Positions 15,202-44,413 of a DNA stretch of 44,413 nt are shown one piece after another. Source of the DNA: Basidiobolus meristosporus CBS 931.73. Its lineage: Eukaryota > Basidiobolomycota > Basidiobolomycetes > Basidiobolales > Basidiobolaceae. The notes beneath the pieces were generated by a model, which was not told the DNA's origin, ran no database searches, and was given only the letters and a program-made list of their open reading frames with translations. The first letter of the stretch is position 1; every line of letters starts with the position of its first letter. The DNA lies in the NCBI GenBank assembly GCA_002104905.1, contig MCFE01000695.1:1-44413 (forward strand). The letters are read 5' to 3'. The position numbers were made by a program, and so were the translations under genes.

Positions 15202-15720
15202 TCAGCGTCTCTCCTCCTTGACAATAATCAATGGCATGGTCAAGTGGTGTGCGCAGTAGTCGCTAACACTCCCCAGCAGGGCCCGTTTAATGGTGCCCAG
15301 GCCACGAGACCCCATAATAACCAAGTCCGCCTTCACCTCAACGGATTTGCGCAGGATCTCATCTCTGGCATCGCCGCGCATCGCAAAGGCCTGGCTGAGG
15401 ATGTTCCTCTGTTTTAACAGTCGGGTGAACTCGATGAGTAGCTTGTGACTGCCATCGCGATATTGGTCTTCGACCGTGGTTGCGTAGCCGCCCATCTCTA
15501 CATAGCTGGTAGCGAAGTTGCCGCTGCTGGCATACAACGGACGCACATGAATGAGCACCACCATGTCGGTCTCTGGTCTCAGGAAATTTTCGATGGACCA
15601 GTTGATCGCGTATTTGCTGCTCGAAGACTCGTCTACCGGGATGAGAACTACACGGTTGGTTCTGGCGGTGTGTTCATCTTGGTGAACTATATGATCATCA
15701 GCGGCTGGGTCCGAGCTCAT
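15202..15720 (-). CDS. universal stress protein, UspA family
   Basis: Small alpha/beta nucleotide-binding protein of the Usp/HUP superfamily, probably cytosolic. It is 172 residues from the ATG at 15720. I prefer this start because the 24 residues added by the next upstream ATG (15792) are not family-like, and the Usp domain begins about 20 residues after the chosen start. The domain opens with TNRVVLIPVDESSSSKYAIN and ends MPLIIVKEERR. The ATP-binding pattern G-2x-G-9x-G-S is complete (GSRGLGTIKRALLGSVSDY), so this is an ATP-binding Usp. Asp in VPVDES-type context at the first strand is kept. The physiological role cannot be read from sequence. It uses TGA as stop, showing that TGA is a normal stop codon here. 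Confidence 0.93.
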   Translation of the reverse strand: MSSDPAADDHIVHQDEHTARTNRVVLIPVDESSSSKYAINWSIENFLRPETDMVVLIHVRPLYASSGNFATSYVEMGGYATTVEDQYRDGSHKLLIEFTRLLKQRNILSQAFAMRGDARDEILRKSVEVKADLVIMGSRGLGTIKRALLGSVSDYCAHHLTMPLIIVKEERR

Positions 15721-25734: not shown

Positions 25735-26758
25735 TTAGGGGAGGGAAAGTCACCAAGTTGGTGAAATCTTTATTTGAGTCAAGAGCTAATCTAAGTACAA
25801 ATAAAGAAGTCAATTAAGAGGTCTCGAACCTCTCTAGTAAGTAATCTAACTTATGTTTTGTTTCATTTCTAATGTTTGTTTCAATGAAGTAAAGTTCATC
25901 AGGGGTAAATATAAGATTCAAGGGTTTTGGGGGAAGTACACATTGTAGATGTTTCTGATCAATAATATCCAAGACTGGAACCCAGCCTGGGATTAGGTGT
26001 AGTAGGAAAGGTGTGTGGACTTGTAAGTAGCTCTGCCACATAGATCTTAGATGGCCCTGCACCAGTAGTCTTGGTTTCTCAGCTTTTTGAAGTTTTGAAG
26101 CAAGCTCTGTTACTACAGCAGAGCCAACCAGGGTGTGACAGCAAGAAGATCTCAGAGAGGAGTTAGATTCAAGCCATTGTTTGATGGAGGGGTTATGTGA
26201 TTTCTGATGTTTGACTAGGTAGGAAGCATGAAAATAGACCATTTGGGTTATGTATGGGTAGAACCCAAAGGCTCCATTAGTTGCATGGATATAGGGAGAT
26301 ACTGGAAGATAAGGTACCAAGGATCTGATACACTGATGGAGAAATTTATCCAGGTGGTGATGTTCTCTGGAGGTTAGGGGTATAATGTGGAGACCAAATT
26401 CAAGTACTGGCAGTACATACTGCTTTAGAAGTATAGGGATCTTTTGAATTGGAGTTTCTGGAGTGACTACTACTAGAAGCTTTTTAAGGGCCTGTTGGGC
26501 AAGACAGATCCTATTATTCAGGTGGAGCATTGAGTCAATCCCATGTTGACAAAATGGCAGACCTAGATATATGGCTGTTTGTTGTGGCAGAATGCTAGTG
26601 TTCTGTATAGTTGTAGTGCACCCAATTGTGACTGTCTTGGAAATTGAGAGTGAGAGGTTGTTGGCAGCCTAGTACTTATCAATGATGGCAGTGTCTGTTA
26701 TGGGATTAGGAGTAGCAATCTTGATAACATCCACATAGAGAGTTAGTAGTAGATAGGG
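25735..26758 (-). mobile_element. non-LTR retrotransposon B1, 5'-truncated
   Basis: Minus-strand fragment of a LINE-like element, family B. The sense strand starts inside the reverse transcriptase at the catalytic motif, here LLLTLYVDVIKIA, so the second Asp of the usual [FY]xDD is Val. It has one in-frame stop shortly after. It then runs through the thumb/C-terminal region (open from 26530 to 25814: LLKQYVLPVLEFGLHIIPLTSRE, NGAFGFYPY) to the stop at 25814. A short 3' tail contains AATAAAG, a small stem-loop and the terminus CCCCTAA. It is a clear paralogue of element A but strongly diverged. Its 5' break lies directly at the 3' end of A1. Confidence 0.9.
25750..25764 (-). promoter_or_regulatory. 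3'-terminal stem-loop of B1
   Basis: The sense strand reads TCACC-AACTT-GGTGA, a 5-bp stem near the very 3' end of the element. Families A and B share the stem, while the loop differs. It probably serves as the RNA signal recognised by the element's reverse transcriptase; this is inference from conservation. Confidence 0.5.
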
Positions 26759-29194: not shown

Positions 29195-29543
29195 TGTTGT
29201 AAGAGTCTTGGAGATATTGGAAGTGATTGGGAGAACAAGTAGATTATGTGGTTTTCACTTAATGATTTATTGATTGTAGAAGTAGTATTTATACTTTTAC
29301 CTAGTCTTGGCATAACAAACACGTAGAATAGGTTAAGGAAGGTCCCAAGAACATGTGTGCAAAGTTTGGGGCTGTTTGGACAACTTTGAGAATTTTCATG
29401 TTCTGGGTACCTGGTATTTTGGTGAAAATATTCTAAGTAAATCCCAACAAGGAATTTGGTCAGTATTCTCTAGGATTTGAAGGTAATGATCTAAGTGACT
29501 AAGTTAGGTGAATATTTAGGTGGAAATACAAATTTTTACAACA
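29195..29543 (-). repeat. copia 3' LTR
   Basis: This is the downstream LTR in sense direction, 349 bp. A TATA-like GTATAAATA and an AATAAA (in CAATCAATAAATCATT) lie in its second half, giving the usual promoter and polyadenylation functions. It is nearly identical to the 5' LTR. Confidence 0.95.
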
Positions 29544-29552
29544 CTCCCACTC
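29544..29552 (-). promoter_or_regulatory. copia polypurine tract
   Basis: Sense sequence GAGTGGGAG sits immediately before the 3' LTR and two bases after the pol stop codon. It is the expected primer site for plus-strand DNA synthesis. Confidence 0.8.
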
Positions 29553-29554
29553 AG

Positions 29555-32500
29555 CTAAATGTTCATACTGACTAGTCCTAATTTTGACCTAAGATATTCA
29601 AACTTGTCTCTAGCTAATGGTTTGGTAAATATGTCTGCAATCATTTCATCTGTAGGACAGTAAACTAAGCTAACTAAGTTATTCTCTATAGCTTCACGTA
29701 TGAAATGATGTCTAATATCTATGTGCTTGGTTCTAGCATGAAAAGTTGGATTTCTACCTAATTGTATACATCCTTGATTATCTTGAAATAAAGTAATAGG
29801 CGTTTTTTGACATAGGCCTAAATCTGTAAAGAGCTTTCTTAACCACATTGCTTCTTTTGTAGCTTCACAGGCTGCCATATACTCTGCCTCTGTAGTAGAA
29901 AGTGCTACGGTTGGTTGCTTTCTTGAATCCATGAAATTGCTCCTTTACAGTAAAGAAAGGTGTATCCTGTGGTGGATCTTCTGTCTTCTAAATTTCGTCC
30001 CCAAGCAGCATCAGAGTATCCCACAAGATCCTGTTCTGAATCCTTATAAGTGTATCTTAAGCAGATATCAGCAGTTCCTTTTAGGTATCTAAAAATCCGC
30101 TTAACTGCTGCAATATGATCAGATCCATAATTCTGATTATGTTGGCTGACAACTCCCACTGAATATGAGATATCTGGACGTGTTCCAAGCATGATATACA
30201 TCAGACTGCCGACCATAGATTGATAAGGAAAGTCAGGGCTTTCAGATGGCACCAAGCTCTCTTGATTTGGTTGAGTTTTGACCAAGTTAAGGTTTGTCTC
30301 CATTGGGGTAGCTGCCGGTTTACAGTCTTCCATTTTGTACTTCTTTAGTATATCTTGAATATACTTGGATTGGCTTAGGGTAATAGTCTGGGTACTTCTG
30401 TCTATGGAGAACTTAATCCCTAAGTAGTAACTGAGTTCTCCTAGATTGGACATCTTGAACTCCTTAGATAGGCTGGATTTAGTCTCTTCCAATGTTTCTA
30501 GGTTATTGGCGGCTATAATAAGATCATCCACATATAGAGCTAATAGAACTGGATTTGCTCTATCTGGCTTATAGTATATACTATAGTCAGCATTACTCCT
30601 TTTGAAACTCAAAGATTCCAAATAAGAATCTATCTTGCAATTCCAGGCTCTTGGTGATTGTTTGAGACCATATAGTGACTTTTTAAGCTTGCAGACCAAA
30701 TGGGGGTTATCTTGGTCAACAAACCCATCAGGCTGGTCCATATACACGTCCTCATCAAGTTCTCCATTCAAAAATGCAGTTTTTACATCCATTTGATGAA
30801 TAAAAAACTTATATTTGGCTGCAATAGCCAATATTAATCTGATGGAATTAAACTTGGCTACCGGTGCAAAGGTCTCAGTATAGTGCAAGTCCTTTTGTTT
30901 GAGAGTATCCTTTGGCTACAAGTCTTGCTTTGTATCTTTCAATTGTACCATCAGCCTTGTACTTTTGTCTTGAAGACCCATCTGCATCCAATTGATTTTC
31001 GGTTGATTGGTAATTTGACTAAGTCCCAAGTTTGATTTTCCATCAGGGCCTGATATTCCTCAGTCATTGCAGATCTCCAAAACTTTGTCTGAGGGCTATT
31101 TAGGGCCTCTTTTACAGTCTGGGGTTCATCAATATGGACTGAATAGGCATAGGCTAAGTTTGTACCCTCATTGATATAGTAATTTGGGCTATTTCTTGTC
31201 CGAATTGGATCTCCGGGCATTTGATACTGGAATGATCACTTCTGGGATATTCCTGGGCACTGATTCTGGCTGAACCACGGTTGTAGAGTCCTCTGGAGTG
31301 AAAAAATTTTCATTGTTTTGCTCTGATTCAATCCTGACAATTGGTGGACTTGAGATCAAATTTTCGTCATCATCTGATGTCATTTTTTGTGAAAATTTTG
31401 AATTTTCATCAAACAACACATCCCTGGACTTGATCAGCTTCTTTGCTTTGGTATTGTAGAGTCTGTATGCCTTACTCTCATTGCAGTAGCCCAAAAATAT
31501 GCATTTTACACTTTTTGGCTCAAATTTTGACTGATTTCCGGCCAGTTTTTTGGCATATGCTGTACACCCAAATATTCTTAGATGTTCTGCACTTGGTCTG
31601 TATCCATACCATGCTTCAAATGGAGTAGAATCACAAAGTATTCTGTTATAACTCCTATTTTTAAGATATACAGCAGTGGCAACTGATTCCGCCCAAAAAT
31701 CATAGGATAATTTTTGATCATGGATCATAGATCTTGCCATATCAATTATTGATCTGTTAGCTTGTTCTGCTACTCCATTTTGCTGTGGGGAGTATGGTAC
31801 AGTAGTCTCTTGCTTTATCCCATGAATTTTGCAGAAGTGGATGAAGAGTTTTGAGGTATATTCTCCACCATTGTCAGAGCGTATTTTCTTGATTTTTTCA
31901 CCAGTTTCTCTCTCCACCATGGCTTTAAACTCCCTGAACTTAGACAGAGCTTCTTCCTTTCTCTCCATGAAGTAGACCCATGTGTATCTTGTATAATCAT
32001 CAATAAAAGTGATTAAATACTTCATCCCGCCTAAGGATAAATTTTGCATAGGTCCACACAGATCTGAGTGAATTAGATCTAATTTTTTCTTAGTTTTGAT
32101 TAACCCAGAGCTCTTGAACGGTTGTCTGGCTTGTTTCCCATATATGCAGGCTTCACAGTGCTCCAAATTAGCTGGGGGATCAATTTTCACTCCAGAAATT
32201 AGCTGATCTTTGATCATTTTACGCAAATAATCAAAATTGATGTGTCCAAATCTCCTGTGCCAAAGCATTGGTGTTTCTTCATTTAAGTTACTTATATTGG
32301 CTTCCAGATATGATGGAATATAAGTCAACTTGTATAGATTCTGATCTCTGATGCCCAAAGCAATATGAGCACCATTTTGATCAGTGATCCTGCATCCAGA
32401 ATTGTCAAAACTGAAACTGAGTCCTTCTGCTGTGGCCTTGCTTACAGAGAGTAGGTTCTTGGCTATTTCTGGTACATAGAGTACTTCTTTAAAGGTCAGT

Positions 32501-33528
32501 GTATGGCTTCCTTCACTGCTTCTAAGGTTTACTTGGATAGTTCCTTCTCCCACTGCATCAAGTGTTCTATTGTCACCCATGAAAACCTTCTTAATTGGAA
32601 TTTCTTGATATTGGGTAAAAAGTTCTTTTTGGTGTGTAAAGTGTTGAGAAGCTCCAGAGTCAATATACCACGTCTGAGAATCCTTGTTTGTGGTCATATT
32701 TAGTGCAGATATGAATAGTCTATCTTCAGTTGTTGCAGCATTTCCATATTCAGGCTTCTTTTGCTGATAATCTCTCTTTTTGAGACACCGGTCTGATGTG
32801 TGTCCTTTCCTTTTGCAGTAGTTGCAAAATAGGTTGCTGTTGCCTTTGTAGGGTCTTGGGTACCTCCTTTGTTGGTTATCATTGCTTATTAAAGCATTTT
32901 CTTCTTCCTTCTTATTGGCGCTTGATTTTCTTAATTCTTCATCCAGGAGCCTTCCATATACGTAATTTAAGGTCAAATCTTCAGTTCTGGACTCTAGGGC
33001 TGATACAAGGCCCTGAAACTCGTCTGTCAGGCTATTCAGGATGGTAACTATCACATCCTCATCAGTAGTTGGTACGCCCACAGATTCCATCTCATCTACC
33101 AGCAGGGTAATTCTGTTAATTAGATTTTTCATTTCTTCTCCTGGCAGCATCTTTGTAGTAAAGAATTTTCTTCTCAGATACATTTTCTTGGCAGCTGAAC
33201 ATGACTGGTAGGTGTCTTCTAATGCCTTCCAGGCATTCTTTGCCGTTTTTGCTCTTGAGCATTGAATTAGCAATTTGTCCTTGACATTAAGGCAAATGCA
33301 GTTAAAGGCACTTTGTTCTTTCTTCTGGTACTTCAAGGCTTCCTCTCCCACGTTTTTAGGAGGGCATTCTTCTCCCATGACAATATCCCAAAGGCCTCTT
33401 TCTTGTAGCAGCATCTTCATCTTCACCTTCCACACTTGGTAGTTAGATCCATCCAACTTTTCAGCAGAGGGAAAAATTCCAGTAATAGCAGTAGTAGACA
33501 TTGCAGAGAGTGACAGCTTGGGGCTCAT
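29555..33528 (-). pseudogene. copia Gag-Pol polyprotein, frameshifted
   Basis: Single gag-pol frame in Ty1/copia order. Gag (DGSNYQVWKVKMKMLLQE), a CCHC knuckle (CNYCKRKGHTSDRC), protease DSGA, then integrase with HHCC (CEACIYGKQARQPF) and DDE landmarks (SDLCGPM, IRSDNGGEY, SPQQNGVAEQ). Reverse transcriptase follows with RWVFK, MDVKTAFLNG and the active site YVDD, then RNase H (STTEAEYMAACEATKEAMWL and HIDIRHHFIRE). The likely start is the ATG at 33528, which lies inside the primer-binding site. The frame is open further upstream, but that lies before or around the LTR promoter. Frame breaks occur near 31,215, 30,963, 30,892 and 29,928, each apparently a small indel; the coding content is otherwise well kept. 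Confidence 0.93.
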
Positions 33529-33532
33529 AACC
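33520..33532 (-). promoter_or_regulatory. copia primer-binding site, half-tRNA iMet type
   Basis: Directly after the 5' LTR the sense strand reads GGTTATGAGCCCC. It is complementary to the anticodon region of fungal initiator tRNA-Met (GGGCTCATAACC), not to a tRNA 3' end. Drosophila copia and yeast Ty5 use such internal priming with a cleaved half-tRNA. The ATG inside this site is in frame with gag. Confidence 0.8.
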
Positions 33533-33881
33533 TGTTGTAAGAGTCTTGGAGATATTGGAAGTGATTGGGAGAACAAGTAGATTATGTGGTTTTCACTTAA
33601 TGATTTATTGATTGTAGAAGTAGTATTTATACTTTTACCTAGTCTTGGCATAACAAACACGTAAAATAGGTTAAGGAAGGTCCCAAGAACATGTGTGCAA
33701 AGTTTGGGGCTGTTTGGACAACTTTGAGAATTTTCATGTTCTGGGTACCTGGTATTTTGGTGAAAATATTCTAAGTAAATCCCGACAAGGAATTTGGTCA
33801 GTATTCTCTAGGATTTGAAGGTAATGATCTAAGTGACTAAGTTAGGTGAATATTTAGGTGGAAATACAAATTTTTACAACA
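33533..33881 (-). repeat. copia 5' LTR
   Basis: This is the upstream LTR in sense direction, 349 bp. The TATA-like box (sense GTATAAATA) is at 33632-33624, so transcription probably starts near 33,600-33,590. The polyadenylation hexamer lies shortly after. Confidence 0.95.
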
Positions 33882-34394
33882 GTTCTCAGGATGGGGAATG
33901 TTGAGATCTCCAAGCAAGATAACAGGTGTTGATATAGATTGTTGGTATTGCTGAACCTTCTGGCATATAACTTGCACTTCCTGAAGGGCAAGACTTGGAG
34001 GCAGATAGCAGAGCACCAGACTGATAGTTGGCAACTGGAGAGCAGCACAGTAAGGGGAGTAAAGAGGAACACAGAGCTGAGGAGTATTGATGGTAGAAGA
34101 GATGAAGCAGATAGAGGAGGTATTCTTTGTTCTAGGAGTAGAAAAGCAATATAGATTAGTCAAAAGTATAGAGGGTAGCTGGACATCAATCAAGCACAGG
34201 AGGGAAAATCTTGAAAGAAGTCTCTCTAGAGTTGGTCTTGATGGCTGTATGCTGTTGCTGTTAAGCAACAGAACTTCAGGTAGTCAGACAGAGGTTGTAG
34301 CTTCTTCAGAGGCAGCATTGATAATGTGACCTGCAGAGTCCCAGAGCTCTTCAAATGGTGCATCACCTAAGTCAGCAAGGAGGGAAATGGCATG
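33882..34394 (-). pseudogene. A1 retrotransposon: ORF1 end and ORF2 start
   Basis: This is the 5' part of the same A1 copy, continuing from 29194 across the copia insertion. The sense strand holds the last codons of ORF1 (DSAGHIVNAASEEATTS), the stop TGA at 34286-34284, and in the same frame the endonuclease start (PEVLLLNSNSIQPSRPTLER to ILLGDLNIPHPE). It ends abruptly at 34394, where copy A2 continues into ORF1, so A1 is 5'-truncated. The readthrough-like signal is conserved (separate entry). Confidence 0.92.
34252..34286 (-). promoter_or_regulatory. UGA-CUA plus hairpin at ORF1/ORF2, copy A1
   Basis: Sense order: TGA CTA at 34286-34281, then nine bases, then the stem CTGTTGC (34271-34265), loop TTAACA and GCAACAG (34258-34252). 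It equals copy A2 except for one loop substitution. See the A2 entry for the interpretation as a stop-codon readthrough signal. Confidence 0.6.
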
Positions 34395-39344: not shown

Positions 39345-40132
39345 GGGGAGGGAAAGTCACCAAGGTAGGTGAAATCTTTATTTGACTTTAGACAAGTCTA
39401 ACTACAAATAAAGAAGCCAGTTGGGAATAGAATATTCCCAAAGTAAACACTAAGTTGAATATGAATAAATCTAAGCTAAAGTTAAGGCAGTATCCCAGAG
39501 TACACTGGAGTTCAGGTTCATGGGGGAGTGGAGTAGATAAGCTTGAGAGATATGATAATCTTTGAGGAAGTGGGTAACAGCAGGTGAAGGGGAGTTTTTG
39601 ATAAGTGAAGTGAATCTTGAGAGCAGAGATTCCTCTAAGGAGAAGGTCTTGTAAACTGGAGAATCAGGAAACTCTTTGAAGGCATGGTCAGTAGGCTCCC
39701 AGTAAAGCTGGTCAGAGACATTTTGAGAGAACTCTTTAGCAATACTTTTGTCAAGTACTACCTCCAGAGTGTGATGGTTGATAAATCTCATGTTAACAAT
39801 CTTGGATAAGTTGTAACCTTGTTGCTTGAGATACATCCTATGCTCAGATATAGGAATAAACTCCACATTGGCAAAGTAGCAGACAGCCCAGTCAGTAGCA
39901 GGAGGCAAATTGGAAGTGGCAGGAAACTTTCTTTTAGTCTTGGGAGGAGCAGCAGGATGTCTTGAGGAAGCAGGAACAGACTTTTTGACAACTTCAGAGT
40001 AAGAAGAATGAGCAGGAGCAGATGATTCTTGGGGAGTCTTGTTGGCAGGAAGAGTTGGCTCAGGGACAATAGATTCTTGCAGATCAGAGAAGGCAGAAAA
40101 GAGCTTTTGAACTTGTTTCTTGAGTAGGGCAT
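39342..40132 (-). mobile_element. non-LTR retrotransposon B2, ORF1-only copy
   Basis: Sense strand minus. It starts within ORF1 (LLKKQVQKLFSAFSDLQESI) and encodes a Ser/Pro/Lys linker and the RRM-like C-terminal part (LPPATDWAVCYFANVEFIPI, LEVVLDKSIAKEF) to TAG at 39471. About 60 bases later comes the family 3' tail (CTTCTTTATTTG, AATAAAG, stem-loop, CCCCTAA). ORF2 is absent altogether. It resembles mammalian HAL1 half-LINEs or an internal deletion. ORF1 is homologous to that of element A but clearly diverged. Its 5' break abuts the 3' end of A2. Confidence 0.85.
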
Positions 40133-42961
40133 TTAGGGGGAGACAGTCACCAACAGGTGAAATCTTTATTTCAGTTGAAACAAAGAAGCCAGTGCTACTG
40201 TTGTAGCTTTGATACAAGAGTGTGTAGCTGAGGGGAATTTGTAGGTAAGTTAATAAGAAGTGATGATAGTTCTTCAGTGCTCAAGACACTGTTCAGTGGG
40301 AAGGGGGGTAGCAAGAGAGGTAAGAATGACTTGTGAACAACATTAATGAGGGGAATGTGATAAGGATTGATATTCATCATAAAGGAAGTGTGCTGCTGCA
40401 GATATTGCTGCCAAAGGTCTGTCAAGTACTTCAGGTAGGCCAGCTTGGGTTTTCTGACTGCAGAATATAGTGAGCAAACTTCTTGACTTCAGGATCTCCA
40501 AGTATAGTTCTCCGGCAGGAGCCAGGTGTTGTGTGGTGTGTTCTCTTCCAGGCCTTAATCAGTGGGTTGTTGCAGTTGTGAAGTCTGAGGTATAATCTGG
40601 TTCTAAGGTAGAGAAGTCTGATCTTATAGGGCATAAACCCAAAAGCACCAAGAATAGCATGTCTGTAGGGGCATTCAGGCAAATGAGGCACCAGGGAGGT
40701 AATGCACCATACTGCAAACTTGTCAAGCTTAGTGCAGTCTCTAGAAGTAAGAGAGAGAAGTGGTAAGCCAAATTCCAGGACAGGGAAGACAAACTGCTTG
40801 AGTAGAAGAAGGCAGCTGGGAGCTGAAGTTGTAGGAGGAGTAACAGCCAGTAGCTTGTGGAGTGCTTGTCTTGCAAGGATAATTCTCTTCTTCAGGTGTG
40901 CTCCAGAGTCTAGTCCAGTAGGAAGGAAAGGAAAGCCAAGATATGTAGCAGAAACCTGAGCAGGTAGAGTGGAGTTCTCTAAGTTGATGGGAGAGCCCAA
41001 AGGTACTGTCTTTGCAATGGAAAGCTGGAGATTATTCTTCTGCAGATACTGGTGGATGGCCTGGGAGTCTTGTTGCACATTGGAGGAGGATATTCTGATG
41101 TCATCAGCAAAGAGAGTAACCAGGCAGTCAGCTGAGAGTCTTGGGAAATCATTCAGGAAGATGGCAAACAGTATAGGACCAGCACAGAGCCTTGAACCAC
41201 TCCATTAGGAACTGAGAACACAGCTGATTGCTCACTTGGGTGCAGAATTCTTGCTTGTGGATCCAGAAACAGAGACCTGACAAGGAGGGTGAGAGAGGTA
41301 CTGGAGAAGCATTGCAACTTAGACCAAAGCAGATTTCTGTCAACAGAATCAAAGGCCTTAGTAATATCAAACAGAACAGAGGGATACTTGCACTGGAGAG
41401 AGTGATCTTGGCTAAGTATGACTGCATATTCCAAGGAGAGGCCAGGAACAAAGCCAAACTGTGCAGGATGAAACTTGAGGGAGTCAGAGTAGAGCTCCTG
41501 AGCAAGCAGAAGCTCAAACACCTTTCTGCAGGTGGGCAGCAGAGATATTGGCCTGTAGGAGCTAGGATCCAGGTGCTTTCCTTTACCCTTGTACAGTGGC
41601 AGAACATTTGCAAAGGACCATTCCTCAGGAGTAGAAAGCTGGGCTGAGCATTGCTGAAACAGTGGAAGCAGAAGTGCAGACATGGCCTTGGTACTAGTCT
41701 TCAGAAGCTCATAAGAGATTGTGTCCACACCTGGAGCAGTAGAGTTGGGAAGCCTCTTGAGCACATTATGGATTCTCCTTTGATCAAGTGCAAGTGGGAT
41801 GGGCAGAGTCTTGAAGTCAGGATGAAAGCCAGGAGTTGAGTACTGCTTTGTAGAGAAGAAGATGTTAGCCAGCTGTTCTGTTGAAGGTAACTTCCTGGAA
41901 GAGGGCCTCATTGCCCTGTAGAGTCTTGATACTGTTCTTGTTATAGAGTTGGAAGATTGCAGAGGCAAGGAACTCATAATATGATCCCAGAGCTGAGTAT
42001 GCAGAGTGTGGTGAATTGCCTTGGAGTGGTGTATTGCTGTCAGGAGGAGTTTCTCTGTTTTTGGGTTAGGGAAACTCAGGTAGCTTTGTTGCAGGGCTGA
42101 AACAATGGATTCCCATTTTCTTGAGGTAACAGCAGTAGTCTTGCATGGCAGTGAGAGGGAGGCAGACACCAGAATCAGATGCTTCACAAAGAGCCAGGCA
42201 TAGTTGAGATCATCTGGCAGAGAAAGTAGCAAACTGGCAAGCTTCAAGTAGTTCCCAAAGTCTTTCTTCTGATTCTTGGTAGCTTTGTGGGTGAGCACAG
42301 TAAGTTTTGGCAGCTTCTTCTTCACAACTGGTTGCATAGAAAGGGACCAGGCTGGGTGGTCAGAGGCTCTCAAGGATCCTAGCTCAGCTCCAGAGAATTG
42401 CTTAACTTCATTCACAAAGTAGAGGGCAGCAGCAGAAGGGCAGATCCAGTCAACACATCTTTTCTCAGATTGAGCACCTAGTGCTAGCAGATGGCTTTCT
42501 CTCAGGAAGTTCAGTAGGAATGTAGACCTTGGCTTCATTCTTGCAGTCAGAGTAGTCTTGTTCTCAGGATGGGGAATGTTGAGATCTCCAAGCAAGATAA
42601 TAGGTGTTGATATAGATTGCTGGTATTGCTGAACTTTCTGGCATATAACTTGCACTTCCTGAAGGGCAAGACTTGGAGGCAGATAGCAGAGCACCAGACT
42701 GATAGTTGGCAACTGGAGAGCAGCACAGTAAGGGGAGTAAAGAGGAACACAGAGCTGAGGAGTATTGATGGTAGAAGAGATGAAGCAGATAGAGGAGGTA
42801 TTCTTTGTTCTAGGAGTAGAAAAGCAATATAGATTAGTCAAAAGTATAGAGGGTAGCTGGACATCAATCAAACACAGGAGGGAAAATCTTGAAAGAAGTC
42901 TCTCTAGAGTTGGTCTTGATGGCTGTATGCTGTTGCAGTTAAGCAACAGAACTTCAGGTAG
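40133..42961 (-). CDS. non-LTR retrotransposon A2, ORF2 (EN-RT)
   Basis: Endonuclease-reverse transcriptase of a LINE-type element. The segment given runs from the codon after the ORF1 stop to the element's 3' end; the ORF2 stop is at 40195-40197. The endonuclease starts at once (LLNCNSIQPSRPTLE, GDLN, VDWICPSAAA, SDHPAW). The reverse transcriptase follows with intact motif A (FDITKAFDSVD), GVVQGSVL and a C-terminal thumb (LLKQFVFPVLEFGLPLLSLT). Compared with A1 it has two one-base losses, near 41,180 and in a T-run near 40,452, both shifting the frame. The first ATG in the frame comes only after GDLN, so ORF2 has no AUG of its own for the endonuclease. The tail has AATAAAG, a stem-loop and CCCCTAA. 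Confidence 0.92.
40147..40160 (-). promoter_or_regulatory. 3'-terminal stem-loop of A2
   Basis: The sense strand reads TCACC-TGTT-GGTGA, the same stem as in B1 and B2 (39357-39372, loop TACCTT). Copy A1 (26775-26788) has one stem mismatch (GATGA). This is the probable template-recognition signal of the reverse transcriptase. Confidence 0.5.
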
Positions 42962-42964
42962 TCA
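42930..42964 (-). promoter_or_regulatory. UGA-CUA stop plus hairpin: readthrough signal
   Basis: ORF1 ends with TGA (42964-42962) followed by CTA. The same frame then stays open into ORF2. Twelve bases after the TGA starts a perfect hairpin: CTGTTGC, loop TTAACT, GCAACAG (42949-42930). UGA-CUA with a 3' structure is an established readthrough context (several plant and alphavirus polymerases; UGA-CUA also acts in Ustilago and mammalian genes). The reading here is inference, but the missing ORF2 AUG supports it. Confidence 0.65.
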
Positions 42965-44413
42965 GGCAGAGGTTGTAGCTTCTTCAGAGGCAGCATTGAC
43001 AATGTGACCTGCAGAGTCCCAGAGCTCTTCAAATGGTGCATCACTTAAGTCAGCAAGGAGGGAAATGGCATGGTTCTTGAGGAAGTATGCCACATCATAG
43101 GAGGGGGCTTGTCTCTTGATGGCAGCAAAGAAAGACAGAATGGCAACATGGGCTGGAGGCTTGTTGAACAGTAGAGAGTCAGAGGATTCAGATTCTTCAG
43201 GCACTATCTTGAAGTCAGTTTTCAGCCAGTTAAGGTTCTTCTCCACAAAGGCAACAAATGGGTCAGCAATGTTTTGGTCTAGGATAACCTCCAGAATCTT
43301 CCCTTTTCTCCAGGCCAGGTTGACAATTCTTGAGAGCTGAATATTGCATGCCTTGAGTGCTTTCCTGATGTTGGAAATGGGAGTCCAGGGAACTTGCTTC
43401 AAGTACACCACAGTCCAGGTAGAAGCTGGTGGTAGGTTTGCTGGGGGCTTGTAAGTCCTTCTGTGTGGCAATGGAGCTGCAGTAGTCAGATTGGAGTCCA
43501 CATTCTCAGTAGAGGGTTTTCTTGATGTGTCTTGCTGAATGGTACTGGAGCTGGATGTGCTGATAATTCTTGCTAGAACCTTGCCTGCATAAGTCTGAGG
43601 TATAGCTGAGGTGACTGTAGAGGTGGTGGCAGCTGGTGCAGGTGGAGAGGCAGAAACTGAAGCAGGAACTGAGGTCACCTGGGAGAAGGCAGTAGAAGCA
43701 GGTTTTCTGGGAGGAACAGAGTTCACTATCCAGTTGTTCTGTAAAACACTGGAGTAGCTTTTCTGTGGAACAGGATCTTGCTCTTGAACAGGAACAGAAG
43801 CAGGAGGCTGGGGCTGAGCAGTAGTGGTAAGGCAGTGGCACTCCAAGGAAGCTTTTTGCAAGGCATCTCTGGCAGTTTTCAGGGCAGTATTGGCTTCATT
43901 CTTGAGCTTCTTGCATTGGGCATCCAGTCTCTTGTTTTCAATAGCCAGGGCAGTATTGGCAGCCTCTAAATCAGCAATTCTCTTCTCAATTGCAAGGAAT
44001 CTCTGAAGAAATGCATCAGTAGAAGTGCTGGCATCTGGGAGAGCAGTGGCAGGAATAGAGTCCATTGACAGTGGGCTTCTTGGAGGCAAGGAAAGTGGAC
44101 TGGCAGATTCAGGCACAAAAGGAGATATCCTGGCAGGAGGAGAAGGAGTATCCAAGGCAGTAACAGAGGCAATTCTTGTTGGTGAAGCAGCAGCAGGGGA
44201 GGCAAGCCTGTTCAGAAACTGGGCAGGAGAGAGTGCTTGAGGAGAGGGAGTCTTCAGCTTGCCAAGCATGTCTTCCATCAGAGTGATACCAATATTCCTG
44301 GTGCATTTGCAGAGAAAAGTAAGCTTCCTGAGTCTGCCAGCTCTTCCATTCCTTCTGATAGTTCCTTTGTTTCCACAGTTGGGGCAAGAAATCTTCTTGA
44401 CAGACTTGTCAAA
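42962..44413 (-). CDS. non-LTR retrotransposon A2, ORF1 (partial)
   Basis: RNA-binding ORF1 protein of element A2. The frame is open to the window edge, so the N-terminus is missing. Order of visible parts: a zinc-ribbon-like CPNCGNKGTIRRNGRAG...CKC at once after the edge; Ser/Pro/Ala-rich segment; coiled coil (FLQRFLAIEKRIADLEAANT and following heptads) about residues 120-170; Ser/Thr/Pro linker; an RRM-like domain (PASTWTVVYLKQVPWTPISN, IVNLAWRKGKILEVILDQ); and a helical C-terminal part ending EEATTSA at TGA. The coiled coil-RRM order recalls L1 ORF1p, while the zinc ribbon replaces the CCHC knuckles common in other LINE clades. It is homologous to B2 ORF1. Confidence 0.85.
   Translation of the reverse strand, partial: FDKSVKKISCPNCGNKGTIRRNGRAGRLRKLTFLCKCTRNIGITLMEDMLGKLKTPSPQALSPAQFLNRLASPAAASPTRIASVTALDTPSPPARISPFVPESASPLSLPPRSPLSMDSIPATALPDASTSTDAFLQRFLAIEKRIADLEAANTALAIENKRLDAQCKKLKNEANTALKTARDALQKASLECHCLTTTAQPQPPASVPVQEQDPVPQKSYSSVLQNNWIVNSVPPRKPASTAFSQVTSVPASVSASPPAPAATTSTVTSAIPQTYAGKVLARIISTSSSSTIQQDTSRKPSTENVDSNLTTAAPLPHRRTYKPPANLPPASTWTVVYLKQVPWTPISNIRKALKACNIQLSRIVNLAWRKGKILEVILDQNIADPFVAFVEKNLNWLKTDFKIVPEESESSDSLLFNKPPAHVAILSFFAAIKRQAPSYDVAYFLKNHAISLLADLSDAPFEELWDSAGHIVNAASEEATTSA

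Follow-up and report, generated by a model that had tools for sequence, protein, structure and literature searches.

The means by which LINEs express their second open reading frame (ORF2) is described as unsettled even for mammalian L1 (PMC5009743). In the fungus Ustilago maydis, a CUA following UGA is reported to be sufficient for stop-codon readthrough, with UGA plus CU as the main determinant and the two bases immediately 3′ of the stop carrying the most weight (PMC4207609). Readthrough has also been proposed for Tj1, Tosmo1-3 and Tcry1, and the stop codon of Tj1 is reported to be necessary for transposition (PMC10085805). A similar prediction was made for Candida Tca2, for which no readthrough was reported in a reporter assay (PMC7175516). 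As to the codon preceding the stop, a study using a human reporter describes good readthrough with the alanine P-site codons GCC and GCA, and AUU as the worst of the isoleucine codons (PMC9841425). Our search of the literature, which covered open-licence papers, found no precedent for readthrough in a LINE. The original prediction that prompted the present analysis knew of no description of UGA-CUA as the ORF1/ORF2 switch of a fungal LINE; novelty holds for LINEs only, since fungal LTR elements carrying TGA-CT at the gag-pol boundary have been described (PMC10085805). The UGA-CT arrangement is, in other words, already published for fungal retroelements, and what is new here is its occurrence in LINEs.

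The window analysed here is the whole 44,413-nt stretch of contig MCFE01000695.1 from Basidiobolus meristosporus CBS 931.73. Its final 4.3 kb comprise, on the minus strand, a LINE copy belonging to what we term family A. ORF1 (42965..44413, minus; 483 codons, its 5′ end lost at the contig end) and ORF2 occupy one continuous frame that is coding on both sides of a single TGA (42962..42964, minus), the candidate leaky stop. Directly after it lies CTA (42959..42961, minus), which serves as codon 1 of ORF2 and as the proposed readthrough context, and which is present in family B as well. The TGA-CTA that had been described as dividing the two ORFs is in place at 42964-42959. The open part of ORF2 (41153..42961, minus; 602 codons) encodes the endonuclease and the start of the reverse transcriptase, and the remainder (40198..41180, minus) lies in other frames. 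Frameshifts near 41180 and again near 40450 break ORF2, leaving this copy defective. Elsewhere in the window, another copy of family A, itself interrupted, also has TGA (34284..34286, minus) followed by CTA. A copia-type element (29195-33883), with an LTR-like repeat of ~350-390 bp at each end, interrupts this second copy near ORF2 codon 133.

The LINE copy closes with a 3′ tail (40136..40170, minus), AATAAAGATTTCACC..GGTGAC..CCCCCTAA, which is common to family A, family B, an ORF1-only element and a short SINE-like sequence. It occurs in the window at 40170, 39382, 26798 and 25774, and after ORF2 in the loci L049 and L050, as if the elements sharing it were mobilised by the same machinery. 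The ORF1-only element (39471-40118, minus; L101) encodes a protein resembling the C-terminal region of LINE ORF1 (36%) and ends in TAG. At least 151 matches to it are found in the genome and, since the LINE-like 3′ tail rather than an ORF2 follows directly after the TAG, it provides no junction.

Scanning the genome (89 Mb in 1311 contigs) at up to three mismatches returned 154 junctions, 149 of them on the reverse strand, and TGA was present in 99 of the 100 matches listed. A match in contig C577, with CCC at the stop site, was discarded as a candidate sense codon, being a 5′-truncated copy joined to the 3′ tail of another element. Of 222 candidates, 40 were scored, and the 30 family-A loci with the best scores were fetched; all 30 have TGA-CTA. 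Eight of these loci combine a complete ORF1 of 523 open codons with an ORF2 that stays open over the entire 620 codons fetched. Complete reads of L049 and L050 (the same loci as L031 and L035) revealed an ORF1 of 523 open codons, or 502 amino acids from its ATG, then TGA-CTA and an ORF2 of 922 codons ending in TAG. Together with a further 19 hand-picked copies (19/19) and the second window copy, TGA-CTA is found at 50 of 50 family-A junctions. Given that the family-A copies are near-identical (99-100% among the 40 scored), the TGA is a property of the working family, and selection is not implied by these counts.

The position of the copies at contig ends identifies family A as a telomere-inserted LINE. 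All but one of the 30 fetched junctions lie <6 kb from the right end of their own contig, and TTAGGG 24-mers number 7428 on the forward strand and 81 on the reverse strand genome-wide, a skew from which it follows that right contig ends are mostly telomeric. Nearly all telomeric contigs of this genome are thus oriented with the telomere to the right. Where flanks were read, telomeric repeats border L049 and L039. With regard to element class, the reverse transcriptase of ORF2 was recognized by the Pfam model RVT_1 (2.6e-25), and the Pfam endonuclease models scored below their own cut-offs. A profile alignment of ORF2 with 13 other LINE ORF2 proteins starts at residue 4 (E 4.8e-53). The similarity points to an APE-type LINE with both endonuclease and reverse transcriptase in ORF2. 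The ORF1 proteins of family A (42965-44413) and family B (L055) have an N-terminal zinc-ribbon-like Cys motif and a coiled-coil-like stretch; every Pfam match to them at E up to 1 was below cut-off. Loci L001-L008, fetched with PF00078, proved to be Ty3-type elements rather than LINEs and were dropped, and tblastn of viral contigs and prokaryote genome contigs found no relative.

In the profile alignment, a nearly invariant Asn column (N16 across the 13 other LINE ORF2 proteins) coincides with the eighth residue after the stop in family A (42938..42940, minus in the window). We take this Asn to be the first catalytic residue of APE-type endonucleases, which had been predicted to lie a few codons past the stop. 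The first in-frame ATG of ORF2 in L049 is codon 142, downstream of the GDLN motif at codons 125-128, so that the predicted lack of an AUG ahead of GDLN was confirmed; in family B the first in-frame ATG is codon 59. No ATG in any frame is found from -32 to +100 nt of the stop in L049, or from -146 to +103 in family B, and no AUG overlaps or sits beside the stop in A or B, or at the junction of a third family, C. With the Asn at codon 8 and the first ATG only far downstream, the stop must be crossed if the protein is to contain this residue.

Eight ORF1 relatives were aligned. Seven of them, the family-B protein and six from metagenomes, end no more than a few residues from the C terminus of family A's ORF1; the eighth, P0096 from Basidiobolus ranarum (55% identity), does not. 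The five closest ORF2 relatives, of 664-923 amino acids, are not fused to ORF1. P0001, P0003 and P0004 come from contigs equal in length to those of the ORF1 proteins P0097, P0095 and P0094, respectively. One ORF2 relative, P0001 (63% identical), has a methionine two codons past the site, which could be encoded by ATG, GTG or TTG. A start codon is accordingly possible there, and the lineage of P0001 may have one just after the site.

The window also contains the 3′ part of a diverged ORF2 (25814..26734, minus) that is 43% identical to that of family A, the match covering 25961-26734, and led to family B (137 matches; ORF1 of 552 amino acids in L055, ORF2 of 949 codons in L053). Overall, B is 47% identical to A in ORF2 and 34% in ORF1. 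Among the 25 family-B junctions read, 24 have TGA at the same position and in the same frame as in A (4 + 20 copies). TGA-CTA is found in 23, TGA-GTA in one (L076) and CAA in one (L054, in G000:C830). L054 has decayed and carries several stops; its frame is continuous across the site owing to the CAA that replaces TGA. That CAA is the sole sense codon encountered where the original prediction would have TGA, and in the intact L049 and L050 the frame is the same on both sides of the TGA. Family C amounts to four DNA matches in total, just one of which, a decayed copy, spans the junction; it reads GGGATT TGA CTC CCA and aligns with family A's ORF2 at 40% identity, beginning at the codon after the stop. 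The codon before the stop is GCC in A and B and ATT in C. UGA followed by CU is thus kept among the diverged families A, B and C and, as these families are related, we regard TGA-CTA as having one origin that was kept rather than three.

How far A and B have diverged can be gauged from four-fold degenerate sites at identical residues, which agree at 84 of 215 positions in ORF2 (39%) and 21 of 92 in ORF1 (23%), placing silent sites near saturation. Likewise, only 23 of the 93 aligned leucine pairs in ORF2 use the same codon; CTA makes up ~9% of these positions in A and ~23% in B, and the junction is the only one at which both have it. The junction also lies in an identical run of 13 nt, TCTGCCTGACTAC, compared with a longest run of 12 elsewhere in ORF2 (2859 alignment columns); the longest runs in ORF1, for comparison, are 16, 13 and 12 (1731 columns). 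Based on the four-fold divergence, the unique shared CTA and the 13-nt run, the TGA-CTA hexamer looks to be under constraint.

A hairpin beyond the stop had been proposed as part of the signal. In the window copy, a perfect 7-bp stem with a 6-nt loop (CTGTTGC-TTAACT-GCAACAG; 42930..42949, minus) does begin 12 nt after the TGA, as described. The 20 nt are unchanged in 50 of 51 family-A sequences (two copies counted twice), with a loop change in the remaining one, and the hairpin of the second window copy differs solely in its loop. It stands out only slightly from chance: shuffling the 40 nt gave an equally good fold in 5 of 200 trials, and shuffling 60 nt gave such a stem in 123 of 5000. Over 150 nt, folding in A is ordinary (z -0.71). 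In family B the predicted energy is 0 kcal/mol over 40 nt, and z is -1.62 over 150 nt, with 11 of 200 shuffles as good, so longer-range structure may exist there. In the 60 nt after the stop, B and C both lack a 7-bp stem. Being absent from both, the hairpin is ruled out as a signal common to the families, and readthrough of the viral type, with a required and conserved 3′ stem, is not what is found here; the hairpin may nevertheless assist readthrough in A. Of the switch as originally envisaged, the UGA-CUA component thus gains support (B keeps TGA-CTA, C keeps TGA-CT, and no start is shared) and the 3′ structure does not. Of the features whose conservation had been suggested as a check, the hexamer and the frame are kept in B, and the hairpin pairing in neither B nor C.

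We consider programmed readthrough of UGA-CU(A), yielding an ORF1-ORF2 fusion, to be the best-supported reading of this junction, with a probability of roughly 0.8. An alternative is that ribosomes stop at UGA and restart nearby at a non-AUG codon, in a variant of the UAAUG coupling of SART1, a telomeric LINE for which coupled stop-start translation is reported (PMC5972666). Such reinitiation would suit a junction at which the end of ORF1 abuts the start of ORF2 without a gap, family A has CTG at codon 5, and P0001 may carry its start at codon 2. However, AUG is absent near the junction in A and B. The CTG of codon 5 is replaced by CTC in B and by TTG in C, and codon 4 reads GTT in A and ATA in the other two. 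No near-cognate start is thus common to the three families, none of which has an AUG placed at the stop as in SART1; reinitiation would moreover leave the persistence of TGA and CTA specifically unexplained, and we think it unlikely. It is more doubtful still that the stop is bypassed at the RNA level, whether by being spliced out or by translation of ORF2 from a shorter transcript initiated within the element. New copies arise from RNA, so routine splicing would be expected to yield some without the junction; we saw none, although searches that sought similar junctions would miss them. The shorter transcript would still be without an AUG upstream of the catalytic Asn.

Two further explanations strike us as very improbable. 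Against the host reading UGA as sense, through a changed code or as selenocysteine, the intact ORF1 and ORF2 of L049 and L050 have no other in-frame TGA. A search for tRNA-Sec gave 13 matches with none over the cut-off, in an assembly that may be incomplete, and the two of the 13 that were fetched are tRNA-Ser(tga) and tRNA-Arg(tcg); a host tRNA-Sec for selenoprotein decoding is thus not observed. The original prediction had cited a TGA stop in a neighbouring host gene at 15202; an ORF does end in TGA there, but it is a putative gene only. Alternatively, the TGA could be a commonplace inactivating mutation in a single copy or a dead lineage, which would be in keeping with the frameshifted state of the window copy. 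Against this, the codon is present at all 50 family-A junctions, including those of copies with both ORFs intact, and at 24 of 25 in family B.

Certain observations do count as objections to the readthrough reading itself. Family B has its exceptions, CAA in the decayed L054 and GTA in L076, and family C is represented at the junction by one decayed copy, in which the stop is preceded by ATT, a weak P-site codon in the human context (PMC9841425). The possible start codon just past the site in P0001, at 63% identity, is a further one.

Under programmed readthrough, the two ORFs of a telomere-inserted APE-type LINE would be a single frame split by a leaky UGA. The majority of ribosomes would terminate there and release the ORF1 protein, and a minority would decode the UGA, aided by the CU(A) after the stop and perhaps by the GCC before it. 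Decoding would generate an ORF1-ORF2 fusion in which the endonuclease starts a few residues past the stop, and the ratio of ORF1 protein to fusion would be set by the stop context, much as for Gag and Gag-Pol. The anatomy of the junction, the intact copies and the conservation of TGA-CT among related families are observed directly; the occurrence of readthrough, its rate, the residue inserted and the fate of the fusion are inferred. More broadly, it seems likely that readthrough at UGA-CUA, and the ORF1-ORF2 fusion it yields, is how an entire lineage of telomere-inserted LINEs in Basidiobolus-like fungi obtains its reverse transcriptase, an arrangement kept beyond silent-site divergence.

Put simply, a chromosome-end LINE probably makes its copying enzyme by way of a weak stop, which a distant relative in the same genome keeps. 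If so, LINEs would be able to reach ORF2 by a route other than stop-start reinitiation or spacer-type initiation, and the logic of Gag and Gag-Pol would extend to them, with the same solution in fungal LTR and non-LTR elements. The activity of a telomeric element would be tied to the fidelity of termination and, given the location of these elements in telomeres, termination efficiency could affect telomere make-up. The motif would also be compact and transferable, so that a handful of base changes would be enough to test the ORF1:ORF2 ratio.

Known systems share some of these features. Mammalian LINE-1 likewise has two ORFs per RNA with the ORF2 product the rarer, but its ORFs are separated by a 63-nt spacer and unconventional initiation has been proposed (PMC5009743, PMC5972666). 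FoTeR and MoTeR1 are also fungal non-LTR elements within telomeric repeats, although they are described as having one ORF and a restriction-enzyme-like endonuclease (PMC12857005). Zorro3 of Candida albicans is a fungal LINE with ORF1 and ORF2, and differs in having several stop codons between the ORFs and a poly(A) target (PMC7175516). SART1 resembles family A as a LINE at telomeric repeats in which translation of ORF2 is coupled to termination of ORF1; its junction is an overlapping UAAUG stop-start, whereas here there is no AUG (PMC5972666). The identical hexamer is found in fungal and animal metabolic enzymes subject to UGA-CU(A) readthrough, but these gain a short peroxisomal tag, while the predicted gain here is a 922-residue enzyme on a nucleic-acid-binding ORF1 protein (PMC4207609). 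Finally, the fission-yeast LTR retrotransposons Tj1, Tosmo1-3 and Tcry1 all keep, between their structural and polymerase parts, a TGA that is in frame and has CTA or CTG after it; they belong to the Tf1/sushi group of LTR elements and have GAA ahead of the stop, in contrast to the present APE-type LINE, in which the stop is preceded by GCC in families A and B (PMC10085805).
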